A stretch of DNA of 39,850 nt from Bryobacterales bacterium (lineage in GTDB: Bacteria; Acidobacteriota; Terriglobia; Bryobacterales; Bryobacteraceae): positions 1 to 39,850 of the forward strand of contig CANIIC010000017.1 in NCBI GenBank assembly GCA_947467395.1. Reading direction: 5' to 3'. The notes below the pieces were generated by a model. It was not told the origin of the DNA. It saw only the letters and a list, made by a program, of their open reading frames with translations, and did not search any database. A program made the position numbers and the translations under genes. This document shows, in pieces, positions 14,036-24,995 of this stretch. Within the stretch, counting starts at the first letter, position 1, and the number at the start of each line of letters is the position of its first letter.

Positions 14036-15001
14036 ATGAGCAACCAGACTGCCGAGCGTGTGAAGCAATACGCCCTCCAAAGCACCTACGAAATCAGCTG
14101 CCTGACGAACATGGCCAAAGTGGCCGAAGAAGTCGGGCAAAAGGGCGTCACGATTCCTCCAGGGACGATGTTCTCCATCGTCGACAAGTCGACCGACCCT
14201 GGCACCAAGGACATCGACCGCGTGAAGACGATCGAACGTTCGGCGCAGTTGGTCAAGCTTGGGTACCGGCCGATTCCGCACGTAGCGGCGCGCCGTTACA
14301 AGGACACCGCCTACTTGCAGGGCATCGTGCAGCAATTGCTCGACGTGGGCGTGGATGGGTTCCTGCTGCTGGCGGGCGATCCGAAGCAGCCGGCTGGTTC
14401 CTTCAGCGCGGCGATGGACATGGCTGCTACCGGGATCTTTGACGACGCGCGGATCAAGACCATCGCATTCGCGGGGCATCCTTACGGGAATCCGAATACG
14501 GTGGCGGAGAACACGGCTCGCGAGTTGAAGCGCAAGAACGAGTGGGCAGCGGCGCATCGCGATAAGGAAGTGTTCCTGTGGTCGCAGGTCTGCTACAGCC
14601 CATCGAAGTTCCTGCGGTGGCTGGATCAACTGGATCGCGAAGGCAACAAGCTACCGGTACACCCGGGCGTGATGCTGGGTGACGTGAAGGCGAAGTTCGC
14701 GTTCGCGCACGGCAACTTCGTGGCGGACCGTCCGACGGGTGATCAGATTCGCGGGTATATGAAGATGCTCGGGATCGGTATGGCCCAGGGCTTGGACGGC
14801 ATCGGAAGCCTGATGGCGACGATCCCGGCAAGCTTCTTCGCGAAGATGGCGGATCGCGCGGCGACGGATAAGCGGATCTCGGCGACGCACTACTACTCAG
14901 GCTTCGGAGCGGCGGCGGTGAAGCAGGCTCTGGAAGTGAACCACAAGTTCGCCACAGGGCAGTTCAGTGGCTCCGGCACCAGCATCTCGATGGAGGCGTA
15001 A
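14036..15001 (+). CDS. Methylenetetrahydrofolate reductase-like protein (MetF family)
   Basis: 321 residues. MetF enzymes use FAD to reduce methylene-THF to methyl-THF, or run in reverse in methyl-oxidising pathways. The TIM-barrel landmarks are present: PPGTMFSIVDKS (beta 2), YRPIPHVAARRYKDTAYLQG (beta 3), GVDGFLLLAGDPKQPAGSF with the flavin-contacting Asp, and IAFAGHPYGNPNTV (usually AGHPEGHP). VFLWSQVCYSP corresponds to the TQFCF strand. It is somewhat longer than typical MetF and divergent, so another folate-linked reduction is possible. It is convergent with a MetE-like gene. TAAACT (14019-14024) ends 11 bases before the ATG. Confidence 0.8.
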   Translation: MSNQTAERVKQYALQSTYEISCLTNMAKVAEEVGQKGVTIPPGTMFSIVDKSTDPGTKDIDRVKTIERSAQLVKLGYRPIPHVAARRYKDTAYLQGIVQQLLDVGVDGFLLLAGDPKQPAGSFSAAMDMAATGIFDDARIKTIAFAGHPYGNPNTVAENTARELKRKNEWAAAHRDKEVFLWSQVCYSPSKFLRWLDQLDREGNKLPVHPGVMLGDVKAKFAFAHGNFVADRPTGDQIRGYMKMLGIGMAQGLDGIGSLMATIPASFFAKMADRAATDKRISATHYYSGFGAAAVKQALEVNHKFATGQFSGSGTSISMEA

Positions 15002-15008
15002 GCCTCCA
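14991..15008 (+). other. Perfect hairpin with GUAA tetraloop spanning the metF-like stop codon
   Basis: TGGAGGC-GTAA-GCCTCCA forms a 7-bp stem closed by a GNRA-type loop that contains the TAA stop. No T run follows, so it is not a standard intrinsic terminator. It may protect the 3' end of the message. Confidence 0.45.
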
Positions 15009-15028
15009 TCCCCGCCAGCGGGCCGGAC

Positions 15029-16042
15029 TTAGCCCTGGCCTAGTTCCTTACGAACGATCTTCGCGCCGTCCACCATCGCCTTCATCTTGGCGAACGCCAC
15101 ATCACGAGGCAGGTGGAAGCAGCCGCAATCGGTCAGCACCTTAATATTTTCCGGCGGCAGGAATTCGAGCGCTCTGCGGATATGCTGCGCGACGAGTTCC
15201 GGCGATTCCACGTCTTCCGTCTTGACGTCGATGACGCCAAGTCCCAAGTTGAACGGCGCGTTGAACTCCTTGAAGAGTTCGATGTCTTCACCGCCGCGGC
15301 GCGCGAACTCCAGGGTCAATTGGTGGACCTTCGCCTTGAGAATGGTCGGGAACAGATAGCGGTAGCTGCCTTCCCACGAAGGCTTACCGTAGCGATTGCC
15401 GTAACAGATGTGCAGGCCGATGCGGGCATCCACTCCCTGCACCAGGGTATTGATCACGTTGACGCCCCATTCCAGATCTTCGGGGAAACCGGAATAGTAG
15501 GGCTCGTCAATTTGGATGATTTCGCAGCCAGCCTTGACCAGCGCCTTCAGCTCCAGGTTCATGATGCGCGCCAGATCCATGGCGAGCGCTTCCTCGGTGG
15601 GATAGAACTGGTTGTTAATGCGCTTGGTGAGGCAGTGCGGACCCGTGACGCAGAACTTGGTGATGCGATCGGTGAAGTTGCGCAGGAAGGTGTAATCCTG
15701 CACCAGACCGAGCGAAGCAGTGGGCAGCTTGCTGCGCACTGCCATGTCATAGAAATCGTAGTAATACTTCTTGGATGAACGATCGATCTGGATGCCGGGG
15801 AAGCGTTCGACGAAATAGTCCACCATGTTGTCCCGGCGGACTTCGCCGTCGGTGATCACGTCGAGGCCGGCAATTTCCTGGTCCTTGATCGCGGCTTTGA
15901 CAGCGGTGTCGTAGATGTCGTCCATATCGCGGCCACTGATGCGGCGCGAAAAGTAGTCGCCCTTGATGCGCTCCAACCAATGCGGCATGGAGTAGCTGCC
16001 GACAATGGAAGTGGGAAGAATCGGAAGGTCCGAGAATTTCAT
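15029..16042 (-). CDS. Short (core) MetE-like cobalamin-independent methyltransferase
   Basis: 337 residues, matching only the C-terminal catalytic half of MetE. LPTSIVGSYSMPHWL is the usual opening (PTTxIGSxPR in MetE), and GLDVITDGEVRRDNMVDYF and IIQIDEPYYSGF are conserved barrel strands. Zinc ligands can be placed: His and Cys in GLHICYGN, Glu in LTLEFARRG, Cys in VLTDCGCFHL. Core-MetE proteins lack the N-terminal half and in known cases take the methyl group from methylcobalamin or another donor instead of methyl-THF-polyglutamate; which applies here is unknown. It lies 3 bases downstream of a methyltransferase-like gene, in one operon, and faces the MetF-like gene. Confidence 0.82.
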   Translation of the reverse strand: MKFSDLPILPTSIVGSYSMPHWLERIKGDYFSRRISGRDMDDIYDTAVKAAIKDQEIAGLDVITDGEVRRDNMVDYFVERFPGIQIDRSSKKYYYDFYDMAVRSKLPTASLGLVQDYTFLRNFTDRITKFCVTGPHCLTKRINNQFYPTEEALAMDLARIMNLELKALVKAGCEIIQIDEPYYSGFPEDLEWGVNVINTLVQGVDARIGLHICYGNRYGKPSWEGSYRYLFPTILKAKVHQLTLEFARRGGEDIELFKEFNAPFNLGLGVIDVKTEDVESPELVAQHIRRALEFLPPENIKVLTDCGCFHLPRDVAFAKMKAMVDGAKIVRKELGQG

Positions 16043-16045
16043 GGC

Positions 16046-17494
16046 TTAGTCCCTACGCGTCGTGTACAGAATCGACGTCTTCGTATCTTTGCGGTATTTA
16101 AACGGGCGGAAGTGAACGTCGTACCCCTCACGATGCGCCACTTCCCTCAGTAAAGCACCATTCACCCAGTTGAGCAGGGATCCATCGAGCTTGCCGGGGC
16201 CGAAGAAGCCCGTGCGGTATTGGGCCATGTCGGTGACAAAGATGTCAAACACCTGCAGGTAGCCTTGCGGGTGCAGCAGCGGGAGGGTGCGGACAAAACT
16301 TTCGAGTGCGACGGAGCTCAGATGAAAGCGGAAGTCGGTAGGCGCTTCCTGCAGGATGTCTTCCATGCGGTCGGCATCCAGACCATCGGGGAACGGGAAC
16401 TCGGGGAGATCTTCGAGACGGACCAGGCGCTCTTCGAGGCGCATGGCGGACCACAGTTCCATCCAGAAGGGCACACCACGGCGGGGGCCACCGAACTGAT
16501 CGAAGCCTTCGTCAATCATGCGCAGTACACGATCGTGGAACTGCGCGATAGGGACGTCGTACTCTTCGCTCAGGCGCTGCGCCGCGGCCAAGGGCACGAA
16601 CGCCCGCACCTGTACAAAGTAGAGCTTGCCGTCACGCCGCACAACTTCTTCGTCCGGAAGATTGTCGTAGACGTTCGTCAAATGCACCTGCATCACTTTG
16701 TGACGCAACTGCGGCAACGCCTTGATCGGATTCGCCGCGTCCATCGCGATGAACTCGCACTGGGAGATGTGCCGAGCTACCGCCGGACGCGCCTTGTTCA
16801 GCGTGTCGTCGGAGTAGTCGCCCATGTAGAAGCGAGTCTGCGGATAGAAACCAGTGCCGCGGTCACGATCGGCGGCCTCGAACTGATCCAACCACTGCGC
16901 ACAGCGCGAGCCTGACCCCACGCCGATCTCCAGCAGGTTGATCTCCGGCGGCAGCTTGTCCTGTTGCTTCATCTGCTGCAGCAAGTCGAGGAACTCCTCC
17001 ACATCGTCGGCGATGGCCTTGGGGTTGTGCCCATCGGAACCACCGCCGGGCAGCGCCTGATCGTACCCCTGACCGGCCGCTTGTTCCCACGCGTTGAGAT
17101 GCCGCCAGTAGAACTTGTTGAACTCCCACACGATGCTGCGGCGCATCGATTTGTAGTCTTCCAGCGGGATGCGATCGGCGGCGGCCATCTCCGAGCCGGC
17201 CACGCGCAACGCTCGACACAAATCAGCTTGCAGATTCTCCGGCTTCACCTGCCGCGTATCGATATGGATGTCCATGATCGGAGGCGGCACATCGCAACGA
17301 TTGGTGAAGCCCTGCGTGGCTGTAACCACATCGCGGAAGTTCTGCTTGTATTGGATCCAATCCAGCTCAAACTGCAACCGCGCGAACTGGCCCTTTTCCA
17401 ACTGGCCTTCAGCGACCATGGCGTAGACAGCTTCGATCAGGGCCTGCGTCGAGGCAGTGGCCTTCTGATTCAGGTGGTTCAGTTTAAGAATCAT
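16046..17494 (-). CDS. SAM-dependent methyltransferase-like protein of unknown function
   Basis: 482 residues. Residues about 195-330 form a class I methyltransferase-like Rossmann region: LLEIGVGSGSRCAQWLDQF is motif I, RFYMGDYSDDTLNKARP the region after beta 2, CEFIAMDAANP motif II, and VMQVHLTNVYDNLPDEEV resembles the post-beta-4 segment of the MidA/NDUFAF7 group. The N-terminal 190 residues (with IQYKQNFRDVVTATQGFTN and IVWEFNKFYWRHLNAWE) and the C-terminal 150 (ILQEAPTDFRFHLSSVAL, LQVFDIFVTDMAQYRTGFFG) match nothing I recognise. It sits between the fhs terminator and the MetE-like gene, 3 bases from the latter. Function with the MetE-like partner is inference. Confidence 0.65.
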   Translation of the reverse strand: MILKLNHLNQKATASTQALIEAVYAMVAEGQLEKGQFARLQFELDWIQYKQNFRDVVTATQGFTNRCDVPPPIMDIHIDTRQVKPENLQADLCRALRVAGSEMAAADRIPLEDYKSMRRSIVWEFNKFYWRHLNAWEQAAGQGYDQALPGGGSDGHNPKAIADDVEEFLDLLQQMKQQDKLPPEINLLEIGVGSGSRCAQWLDQFEAADRDRGTGFYPQTRFYMGDYSDDTLNKARPAVARHISQCEFIAMDAANPIKALPQLRHKVMQVHLTNVYDNLPDEEVVRRDGKLYFVQVRAFVPLAAAQRLSEEYDVPIAQFHDRVLRMIDEGFDQFGGPRRGVPFWMELWSAMRLEERLVRLEDLPEFPFPDGLDADRMEDILQEAPTDFRFHLSSVALESFVRTLPLLHPQGYLQVFDIFVTDMAQYRTGFFGPGKLDGSLLNWVNGALLREVAHREGYDVHFRPFKYRKDTKTSILYTTRRD

Positions 17495-17517
17495 CGTGAT
17501 CGAACCGGGCGACGACG

Positions 17518-17553
17518 AAAATCAAAAGGGCTGCTCGGTGAGGAGCAGCCCTT
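17518..17553 (-). terminator. Intrinsic terminator after fhs
   Basis: An 11-bp perfect stem, AAGGGCTGCTC (17526-17536) with GAGCAGCCCTT (17543-17553), and a 6-base loop. On the minus strand it is followed by TTTTGATTTT. It lies 8 bases after the fhs stop and separates fhs from the downstream methyltransferase-like gene. Confidence 0.9.
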
Positions 17554-17561
17554 GGGTTTGT

Positions 17562-19460
17562 TTAGGAGAGACCGATGATTTTACCGGTCTCGACATCCAG
17601 GTCAATGTCGAAGTAGCCCGGCCGTGTTGACAGGCCCGGCATCGTGGACATTGTGCCCAGTAGCGGGAACAGGAAGCCCGCACCGACGCTGGCGCGAATC
17701 TCGCGCACCGGCACCGTGAAGCCTTCCGGGGCACCCTTGAGGGTCGCGTCATGGCTGAACGAATACTGCGTCTTGGCGATACAGATGGGCAGGTTCGCGA
17801 AGCCCTGCTTGGTGTAGCGTTCGATCTGCGCCTCCGCTTCCGGCGAGAATTCGACGGCCGCGCCGCGGTAGACTTTCTTCACAATGGCTTCGATCTTTTC
17901 CTTGATCGAAGCTTCCAGCGGATAGAGGAACTGGAAGTTAGCCGGCTTCTCACACGCGGCCACAACCGCGTTCGCCAGATTCACCGCACCCAGGCCGCCT
18001 TCGGCCCAGTGGTTGGTGGTGACAGCGTCCTCCGCGCCCGCTTCCTTGGCCTTCTTGCGGATGAGATCCAACTCGGCCGGGGTGTCGTCCTTAAAGCGAT
18101 TCACCGCGACCACCACCGGGATGCCGAACTGCTTGGCGTTCTCCACGTGGCGCATCAGGTTGGAACAACCCTTTTCCAGCAGTTCCAGATTCTCCGTGGT
18201 GTACTCGTGCGACAACGGCTTGCCGGCGACCACCTTCGGACCACCGCCGTGCATCTTGAGTGCGCGAACCGTGGCCACCAGCACCACGCAATCCGGCTTC
18301 AAGCCGCTGTAGCGGCACTTGATGTTGAAGAACTTCTCCATGCCCATGTCCGCGCCGAAACCGGCTTCGGTGAGCACGTAGCCTTCCGGACCAACCAGCT
18401 TCAGCGCGATCTGGTCAGCGACGATCGACGAGTTGCCGTGAGCGATGTTCGCAAACGGACCCGCGTGCACGAACGCCGGCGTACCTTCGATGGTCTGCAT
18501 CAGGTTCGGCATGATGGTGTCCTTCATCAGGACAGCCAAGGAGCCGGTGACGCCGATGTCATCGCAGGTGATAGGATCGCCCTTGCGCGAGGTGGCAACG
18601 ACCATGCGCGCGAAGCGGTCCTTCATGTCGCCCAAGCTGGTGGCCAGCGCTAGGATCGCCATCAATTCGCTGGCAACGGCCATGTCGAAACCAGTGCTGC
18701 GGCTAAGGCCCTTTTCTTCAGGACCTTGACCCACGGTGATCTGGCGCAACATGCGATCATTGGTGTCCAGAACGCGACGCCACGTGATCGTGTCGGGGTC
18801 AATGTCCAGATACGCCCAACGCGCCTTCTCTTCCGGCGTGAACGCATTCGGGTCGGTCTTGTCGATGCCCAGCTTCTTCACACGGCGCAACATCACCGTG
18901 GAGAACTTGCGGCTGCCGTCCTTGGCGGGCGGAACCAGGCGTTCCCACATCTGCTCCGGCGTGGCCTGGGCTTCTTGGAACACGCGCGAATCGAGCGCCG
19001 CGGCCAACAGGTTATTCGCTGCGATGATCGCGTGAATGTCGCCCGTCAGGTGGAGATTGAACTCTTCCATCGGGATGATCTGGCTGTAGCCGCCGCCGGC
19101 CGCGCCACCCTTGATGCCGAAGGTCGGACCTTGGCTAGGTTGACGAATATTCGTGAACACCTTCTTATTGAGGTGCGCACCGATGGCTTGGCTCAGACCG
19201 ACCGTCGTAGTCGTCTTGCCTTCACCCAACGGCGTGGGCGTGATCGCTGTGACCACGACATACTTGCCGTTCTTCACATCCTTTAAACGATCTCGAATGG
19301 ACAAATGGACCTTGGCCTTCGTCTTACCGTAGGCTTCCAGTTCGGCGTCCAGGATGCCAGCCTCGGCTGCGATCTGTGCGATCGGAATCGGGACTGCGGC
19401 CTGGGCGATTTCAATGTCGCTAGGGACGGGGGTGAGGAGGGTTGTGAGCTTTTTTGCCAT
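17562..19460 (-). CDS. fhs: Formate-tetrahydrofolate ligase
   Basis: 632 residues from ATG at 19460 (MAKKLTTLL); the frame is open upstream but without family similarity. It makes 10-formyl-THF from formate, THF and ATP, or runs in reverse to yield ATP. Landmarks: [20 protein letters not shown] (the P-loop signature), [103 protein letters not shown] and [13 protein letters not shown]. It is longer than the common 555-residue form because of additions near the N-terminus and the middle. A perfect TATAAT (19487-19482) lies 21 bases upstream and an intrinsic terminator follows, so it is probably monocistronic. Confidence 0.97.

Positions 19461-24920: not shown

Positions 24921-24995
<75 letters not shown>

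Follow-up and report, generated by a model that had tools for sequence, protein, structure and literature searches.

The locus described here lies in a 39,850-nucleotide stretch of DNA (the window) on contig C17 (CANIIC010000017.1) of a Bryobacterales (Acidobacteriota) metagenome-assembled genome (MAG; GCA_947467395.1, 4.07 Mb in 278 contigs, 95.67% complete), and centres on two adjacent genes, a short MetE-like gene and its larger partner, which we call MetEcore and MT482. A first-pass annotation of the sequence had placed four one-carbon genes side by side, and all four open reading frames are present. A metF-like gene (14036-15001, + strand) encodes a short methylenetetrahydrofolate reductase (MTHFR) of 321 residues; MetEcore (15029-16042, - strand, 337 residues) comprises the MetE catalytic domain without the N-terminal domain; MT482 (16046-17494, - strand, 482 residues) has the predicted fold of a class I S-adenosylmethionine (SAM) methyltransferase; and fhs (17562-19460, - strand) encodes a formate-tetrahydrofolate ligase (852.9 bits to PF01268, FTHFS) of 632 residues if counted from the ATG chosen in that annotation, the longest frame extending to 19652. 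MT482 ends 3 bp ahead of the start of MetEcore, as had been reported, and fhs lies upstream of MT482 on the same strand across a gap of 67 bp. The description of the four genes as one region holds for their presence but needs amending for the metF-like gene, which lies on the opposite strand and is convergent with MetEcore, so that in the window only fhs, MT482 and MetEcore can form one transcription unit. The metF-like protein scores 24.9 bits to PF02219 (MTHFR), barely above the cut-off of 24, and its residues 28-215 give 71.3 bits to the MTHFR chain 7xg9.

MetEcore matches PF01717 at 140.9 bits (cut-off 21), the sole Pfam family above cut-off. A full-length, two-domain MetE is ruled out, as the TIGR01371 profile for that form is covered in its C-terminal half only (positions 421-753; 109.6 bits against a cut-off of 929.95). 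The zinc residues H211, C213, E245 and C306 and the homocysteine residues S16, E67 and D179, whose roles are set out in PMC7857596, are identical in 26 of 26 MetEcore sequences drawn from the two bacterial groups that carry the gene. This set of pairs omits G462, where MT482 is cut at a contig end, the locus L011, kept out of the MetEcore alignment since a contig end cuts the gene, and G856 and G1034, which have no MetEcore (G and L numbers are our labels for genomes and loci). With these residues kept and the N-terminal domain absent, MetEcore has the make-up of a core methionine synthase; it is very likely a homocysteine methyltransferase domain without a folate-binding domain, and the intact residues make homocysteine the likely acceptor. 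Its best NCBIfam family is PRK04326 (298.1 bits, under the cut-off of 406), it shares 35.3% identity with a methionine synthase from haloarchaea, and its best-ranked plasmid match is 37.5% identical.

The pairing of the two genes is conserved in two distant groups. MT482 is found in 14 of 200 Bryobacterales genomes, always with MetEcore directly downstream, a count that leaves out a fifteenth, partial match of 28% identity in G376; a phylum-wide sample yielded it in 2 of 297 genomes, both of one genus. A second group was reached through the locus of a MAG that its depositor labelled Nocardiopsis, and that label together with a high third-position G+C suggests that the group is probably actinobacterial, hence of a different phylum. 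Here MT482 occurs in 14 of 249 genomes of the order, MetEcore following it in 12 of the 14, and a thin sampling of the phylum yielded it in 1 genome of 296. The distance from MT482 to the aligned start of MetEcore ranges from 0 to 87 bp across 14 pairs of Bryobacterales, taken from 13 of the 14 genomes and from the record L012, and from -5 to 19 bp across the 12 pairs of the second group. MetEcore without MT482 was seen neither in the 19 MT482-less Bryobacterales genomes examined (by Pfam scores, or by the MetEcore profile for G289) nor in 20 of the 235 MT482-less genomes of the second order, where the best match reached 234.7 bits against at least 427 in true MetEcores. Sequence distances of the two proteins correlate, with Pearson coefficients of 0.74 for Bryobacterales and 0.84 for the second group, which carries little weight without a control pair. 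Because MetEcore follows MT482 so regularly in both groups the arrangement is not due to chance, and the earlier expectation that the two genes belong together, and would stay neighbours in relatives, is borne out.

MT482 is modelled as a class I SAM-methyltransferase fold, one common to many class I families, with its longest structural alignments to MidA and COG1565 proteins. In sequence, the copy in the window scores 20.7 bits to Methyltransf_28 (PF02636), below the gathering cut-off of 23.3; 19 of 29 MT482 members match this family at E<=0.1 (best E 6.7e-6), and some may pass the gathering score. The alignment of these 29 contains two rows without the N-terminus and leaves out the partial L027 and short duplicate loci of included genomes, the loci L005-L010 having been equated with G353, G187, G394, G326, G385 and G322 via equal coordinates or identities. 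AlphaFold2 models had a mean pLDDT of 74.6 and a pTM of 0.63 with 16 alignment rows, and 83.0 and 0.79 with 29. A Foldseek search with the model placed the polyketide methyltransferase PsoF on top (E 3.3e-7) and COG1565/MidA chains at 6.6e-7 to 1.5e-5, while VIA aligned residues 109-482 with 1zkd, 4g67, 4f3n and 5ztz/5zu0 over 270-291 residues (Z 15.7-17.8, root-mean-square deviation 3.0-4.1), the values for the COG1565 protein 1zkd being Z 17.8, 272 residues and 3.0, and those for MidA (5ztz) Z 16.9, 291 residues and 3.4. Other class I methyltransferases tie on Z (up to 17.3), but over about 200 residues. The COG1565 alignments begin at residue 109, which leaves about 108 extra N-terminal residues. 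All 26 MT482 sequences of the pair set share the SAM motif residues E189, G191, G193, G195 and D226, and N52, R54, D79, R81, N126, E137, D154, D417, K435 and N445 are further invariant polar residues of the 29-row alignment. A profile search of the PDB with the 29 sequences returned three weak matches (best E 0.0048) that we do not take as relatives, pentatricopeptide matches were disregarded as no stretch passed by itself, and no plasmid-borne match to MT482 was found.

The idea that the larger partner resembles the O-demethylase LigM is not supported by these results. LigM has a GcvT-type fold; no GcvT family appeared in the Pfam scan of the 29 members, no LigM-like fold is among the listed structural matches of the model, and residues 109-482 match class I SAM-methyltransferases, the N-terminal part being the portion barely tested. 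The likeness to MidA brings in a different explanation, in which MT482, as a MidA-like SAM sensor or protein methyltransferase, would control MetEcore and MetF or bring about their maturation and would not be a donor-side catalyst. NDUFAF7, whose target is an arginine residue in a subunit of complex I (PMC3829151), would offer an analogue for such a role, and like MidA and NDUFAF7 (COG1565, PF02636) MT482 spans the COG1565 core of the class I fold with its SAM motif intact, MidA and COG1565 chains giving the longest alignments of all. MT482 differs from these proteins, however, in its 9-13% identity to them, its sub-cut-off Pfam score, its extra N-terminal part and its methionine/folate neighbourhood. 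The many invariant polar residues beyond the SAM motif and the N-terminal part outside the MidA alignment also argue against this explanation, and a maturation factor would not need to stay so strictly beside its client; we regard it as very improbable.

Among known core-MetE systems, MesA, MesB and MesC use a corrinoid protein as methyl donor and belong to methanogens or Wood-Ljungdahl organisms; by eye no corrinoid protein was recognised beside the MT482-MetEcore pair, corrinoid genes not having been searched for. MesD, according to PMC7857596, needs a partner, MesX, that is thought to supply its methyl group, and by this analogy MT482 may be the methyl supplier of MetEcore. MetEcore resembles MesD in consisting of the catalytic part of MetE with no N-terminal domain, in having an unrelated partner encoded next to it and in keeping the zinc and homocysteine residues (PMC7857596). 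It is unlike MesD in its 31.5% identity to a plasmid core-MetE adjoining a DUF1852 gene, against the threshold of about 55% given there, and in having MetF as an almost constant neighbour, which MesD does not need (PMC7857596). MT482 itself is not MesX, PF08908 being unmatched by the 29 MT482 sequences in the Pfam scan at E<=0.1; a genome-wide search for MesX matched 0 of 33 genomes, and the control genomes gave no match either. The archaeal split MetE (PF1268/PF1269 type; PMC7857596) is similar in its two adjacent genes and in the PRK04326 and haloarchaeal matches of MetEcore. Its partner is a Meth_synt_1 barrel, whereas MT482 has a different fold. No MT482 sequence among the 29 matches Meth_synt_1 (PF08267), a search confined to the partner and not extended to the rest of the genome.

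MetF, MT482 and MetEcore form the core common to both groups. A MetF lies beside the pair in all 14 Bryobacterales genomes; in 12 it follows MetEcore and is of a type of about 500 residues, unlike that of the window, and in the other two, the window's genome and G353, the short convergent MetF stands in its place. The longer type has PF02219 and PF12225 fused in four of four full-length copies scanned, so that the relatives, but not the window, have an enzyme of the MetV-MetF type, which combines PF02219 with a fused or neighbouring PF12225. Thirteen of the 14 second-group genomes have MetF immediately ahead of MT482. In this group tblastn also detected a distinct MetV-like gene at 11 of 14 loci (PF12225 confirmed in the single copy scanned), metK follows MetEcore in 12 of 12 pairs, and purU and a PfkB-type nucleoside-kinase-like gene each occur in 8 of the 14 neighbourhoods, which are of unequal lengths. 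Of the Bryobacterales neighbourhoods, which span 4 to 40 kb, 10 of 16 contain fhs, as does 1 of 14 in the second group. The metK and PurU copies scanned are above their NCBIfam cut-offs and the second-group fhs fragment is below. One further locus, L009:594-17447 (G385), holds formate-dehydrogenase-like genes (by eye), MT482, MetEcore, MetF, a homocysteine-methyltransferase/MTHFR fusion and MetH.

These neighbours allow for MT482 being an ordinary SAM-dependent methyltransferase acting on an unnamed acceptor, with MetEcore, MetF, fhs and metK as its SAM-regeneration cassette. The intact SAM motif and class I fold of MT482, the constant metK and frequent nucleoside-kinase-like gene of the second group and the presence of MetF-MT482 without MetEcore in two genomes, with no metK seen nearby, are consistent with this view. 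It would, however, leave MetEcore without its own folate-binding part or a donor partner, and MetEcore was never seen apart from MT482 in the genomes examined; the Bryobacterales neighbourhoods examined yielded no metK, and no acceptor-related gene common to both groups was seen. We judge a SAM-regeneration cassette to be unlikely.

Some copies of the pair lie among catabolic genes, which bears on the earlier suggestion that the cluster strips methyl groups from an unknown donor into the folate pool. In such a scheme the pair would replace LigM in a ligM-metF-ligH-like operon and move methyl groups from methoxylated, lignin-derived aromatics or another donor to homocysteine or folate, with MetF, fhs and PurU carrying the carbon to formate. 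In Sphingobium SYK-6, ligM, metF and ligH form one operon (PMC6888825), and the layout here resembles it in having metF and fhs (ligH) beside a putative methyl-moving protein, MT482-MetEcore standing at the place of LigM, and in some relatives LigY/LigK-like genes upstream. In 4 of 16 Bryobacterales neighbourhoods, those of G367, G394, G464 and G340, genes for a LigY-like amidohydrolase and an SsuA-type transporter occur upstream of the pair, along with two RraA/LigK-like genes; the LigY-like copy of G367 scores 403.3 bits against LigY (5vn5) and 227.6 against LigJ (6dwv), that of G394 is cut at a contig end, and G322 has RraA-like genes on a contig that stops before the rest. The second group has an extradiol dioxygenase in 5 of 14 neighbourhoods (the tested copy gives 149.4 bits to BphC, 1han), a PucR/CdaR-like regulator in 7 and PurU in 8, and four neighbourhoods contain further amidohydrolase and HpaI-like aldolase genes. 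The MetV-MetF type, moreover, is described for the catabolic route of acetogens in PMC8760232. L178:9881-18696 (G367) and L179 (G464) show, upstream of the pair, the LigY-like hydrolase, large and small subunits of the aconitase family, an M24-peptidase-like gene, a transporter and the RraA/LigK-like genes.

None of these catabolic genes is present in the 39.9 kb of the window, however, and none was seen in G187 (9.6 kb), G353 (13.1 kb), G326, G385, G345, G424, G381 and G462, where between 5.7 and 17.4 kb were examined; in the window and G187 the pair is adjoined by mqnE and ubiA-like genes. The LigK scores of the RraA-like genes are far under the family cut-off, MetEcore retains its homocysteine site, and the metK of the second-group operon points to SAM supply. 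No LigM-like protein was recognised in the operon, and MetEcore and metK are without counterpart in the SYK-6 operon (PMC6888825). We think methyl stripping improbable as the function of the pair, though the catabolic genes of some relatives speak for it.

The distribution of MetH, called by TIGR02082 at E<=1e-80 in the 200 Bryobacterales genomes only, is of interest here. MetH or a large piece of it is present in 186 of the 200. Of the 14 genomes with the pair 6 have none, compared with 8 of the 186 without the pair (Fisher p 8e-5, relatedness ignored); within the window's genus it is missing in 6 of 10 pair and 0 of 10 non-pair genomes (p 0.011, relatedness ignored). On the MT482 tree the absence of MetH takes 4 changes when MetH is assumed for the second group and for the untested L012, and by our reading 3 if L012 is without MetH. 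In G187 and G353, both about 99% complete, TIGR02082 shows neither MetH nor a homocysteine-methyltransferase/MTHFR fusion frame of about 600 residues. A full-length MetE or MetH, which the first-pass annotation had named, together with a lack of phenotype on loss of the pair, as speaking against its reading, was not found in the window's own assembly, 95.67% complete in its 278 contigs.

We propose a model in which MT482 and MetEcore are the two components of a zinc-dependent, cobalamin-independent homocysteine methyltransferase of the methionine synthase type, and we put its probability at roughly 0.45. MetEcore would bind and activate homocysteine on zinc, as its conserved residues suggest, and MT482 would act on the donor side, delivering the methyl group in place of the N-terminal MetE domain that MetEcore lacks. 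Because MetF is a nearly constant neighbour, the methyl source would most likely be 5-methyl-tetrahydrofolate (methyl-THF) from the adjoining MetF or MetV-MetF, with formate entering through fhs and feeding the formation of methyl-THF. In the window's lineage, co-occurrence suggests that the pair would stand in for a lost MetH. Of the possibilities first raised for this locus, a minimal methionine synthase needing the larger partner is the best reading, given the conserved adjacency and the lack of any full-length MetE or MetH found. More doubtful is the fuller version of this model, in which a MidA-like SAM-methyltransferase fold would have been turned into the donor-side half, taking its methyl group from methyl-THF or a methylated aromatic, to give a two-part, cobalamin-independent synthase that no known methionine synthase matches, that occurs in Acidobacteriota and probably Actinomycetota and that can replace MetH.

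Several observations weigh against the two-component synthase. The SAM motif of MT482 is intact and its nearest folds are SAM-using enzymes, and we know of no class I methyltransferase fold that takes a methyl group from folate; a donor-side subunit may have kept the motif with SAM as a regulator, or one of the competing explanations may be right. The catabolic surroundings of some copies are a further difficulty, as are G856 and G1034 of the second group (L131 and L139), which keep MetF-MT482 with neither MetEcore nor metK beside it and whose best genome matches to the MetEcore profile reach 190.6 and 230.1 bits; in these genomes MT482 either acts without MetEcore or pairs with their more distant core-MetE. 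On the tree the absence of MetH shows only weak clustering, with values as low in 33 of 500 shuffles, and MetH is present in 8 pair genomes and absent in 8 non-pair genomes. As these 8 MetH-less non-pair genomes show no PF01717 match above 83 bits, some absences may be assembly gaps, and the absence of MetH in the fragmented genome of the window may likewise be one. Finally, a second core-MetE type is present in all six MetH-less pair genomes (in the window's genome as a 104-residue fragment, probably of the same type, at the edge of a contig), so that the loss of MetH does not single out the pair, and it also occurs in G289 (L103:4974-6011), which has MetH and no pair.

This second core-MetE family is found in all 14 pair-bearing Bryobacterales genomes (for example at L092:4956-6005 in G187, and in L093, L094 and L096). 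It has the motif HxCFGY, its zinc and homocysteine motifs are intact, two members scanned gave a URO-D match, and it is a further methionine synthase candidate. As a separate observation, G856 has a homocysteine-methyltransferase/MTHFR fusion (516.5 bits to PRK08645) near MT482.

Beyond the metF-like gene the window contains an MqnE gene and a UbiA-type prenyltransferase gene, as is also the case beside the pair of G187, and these give its surroundings a housekeeping appearance. The closest named records of the window are mostly Bryobacterales MAGs. L006 (CALQCC020000049.1), titled Bordetella parapertussis, has a locus nearly colinear with the window at 57-88% protein identity, and the title looks wrong for this MAG. 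A small bacterial signal recognition particle RNA (2627-2724, + strand) and a tRNA (24924-24995, - strand) are ordinary housekeeping RNAs and the only Rfam matches of the window at gathering scores; no SAM, cobalamin or THF riboswitch was matched there, and no Rfam family reached its gathering score in 11 of 14 second-group loci or in 11 Bryobacterales loci (L143, L144 and L147 lying outside the scan).

No description of the MT482-MetEcore pair was found in the open-licence PMC literature, and while its parts are of known kinds their combination was not seen described there. How core-MetE proteins that have neither a folate-binding domain nor cobalamin obtain a methyl group has yet to be explained; in PMC7857596 no substrate was known for MesX. 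The pair is another core-MetE with a fixed partner, here of a recognisable and quite different fold, and its operon names a candidate donor pathway. It could fill the place of the missing methionine synthase in several Acidobacteriota that lack MetH, and the lack of MetH and MetE alone is no ground for scoring such genomes as methionine or B12 auxotrophs.

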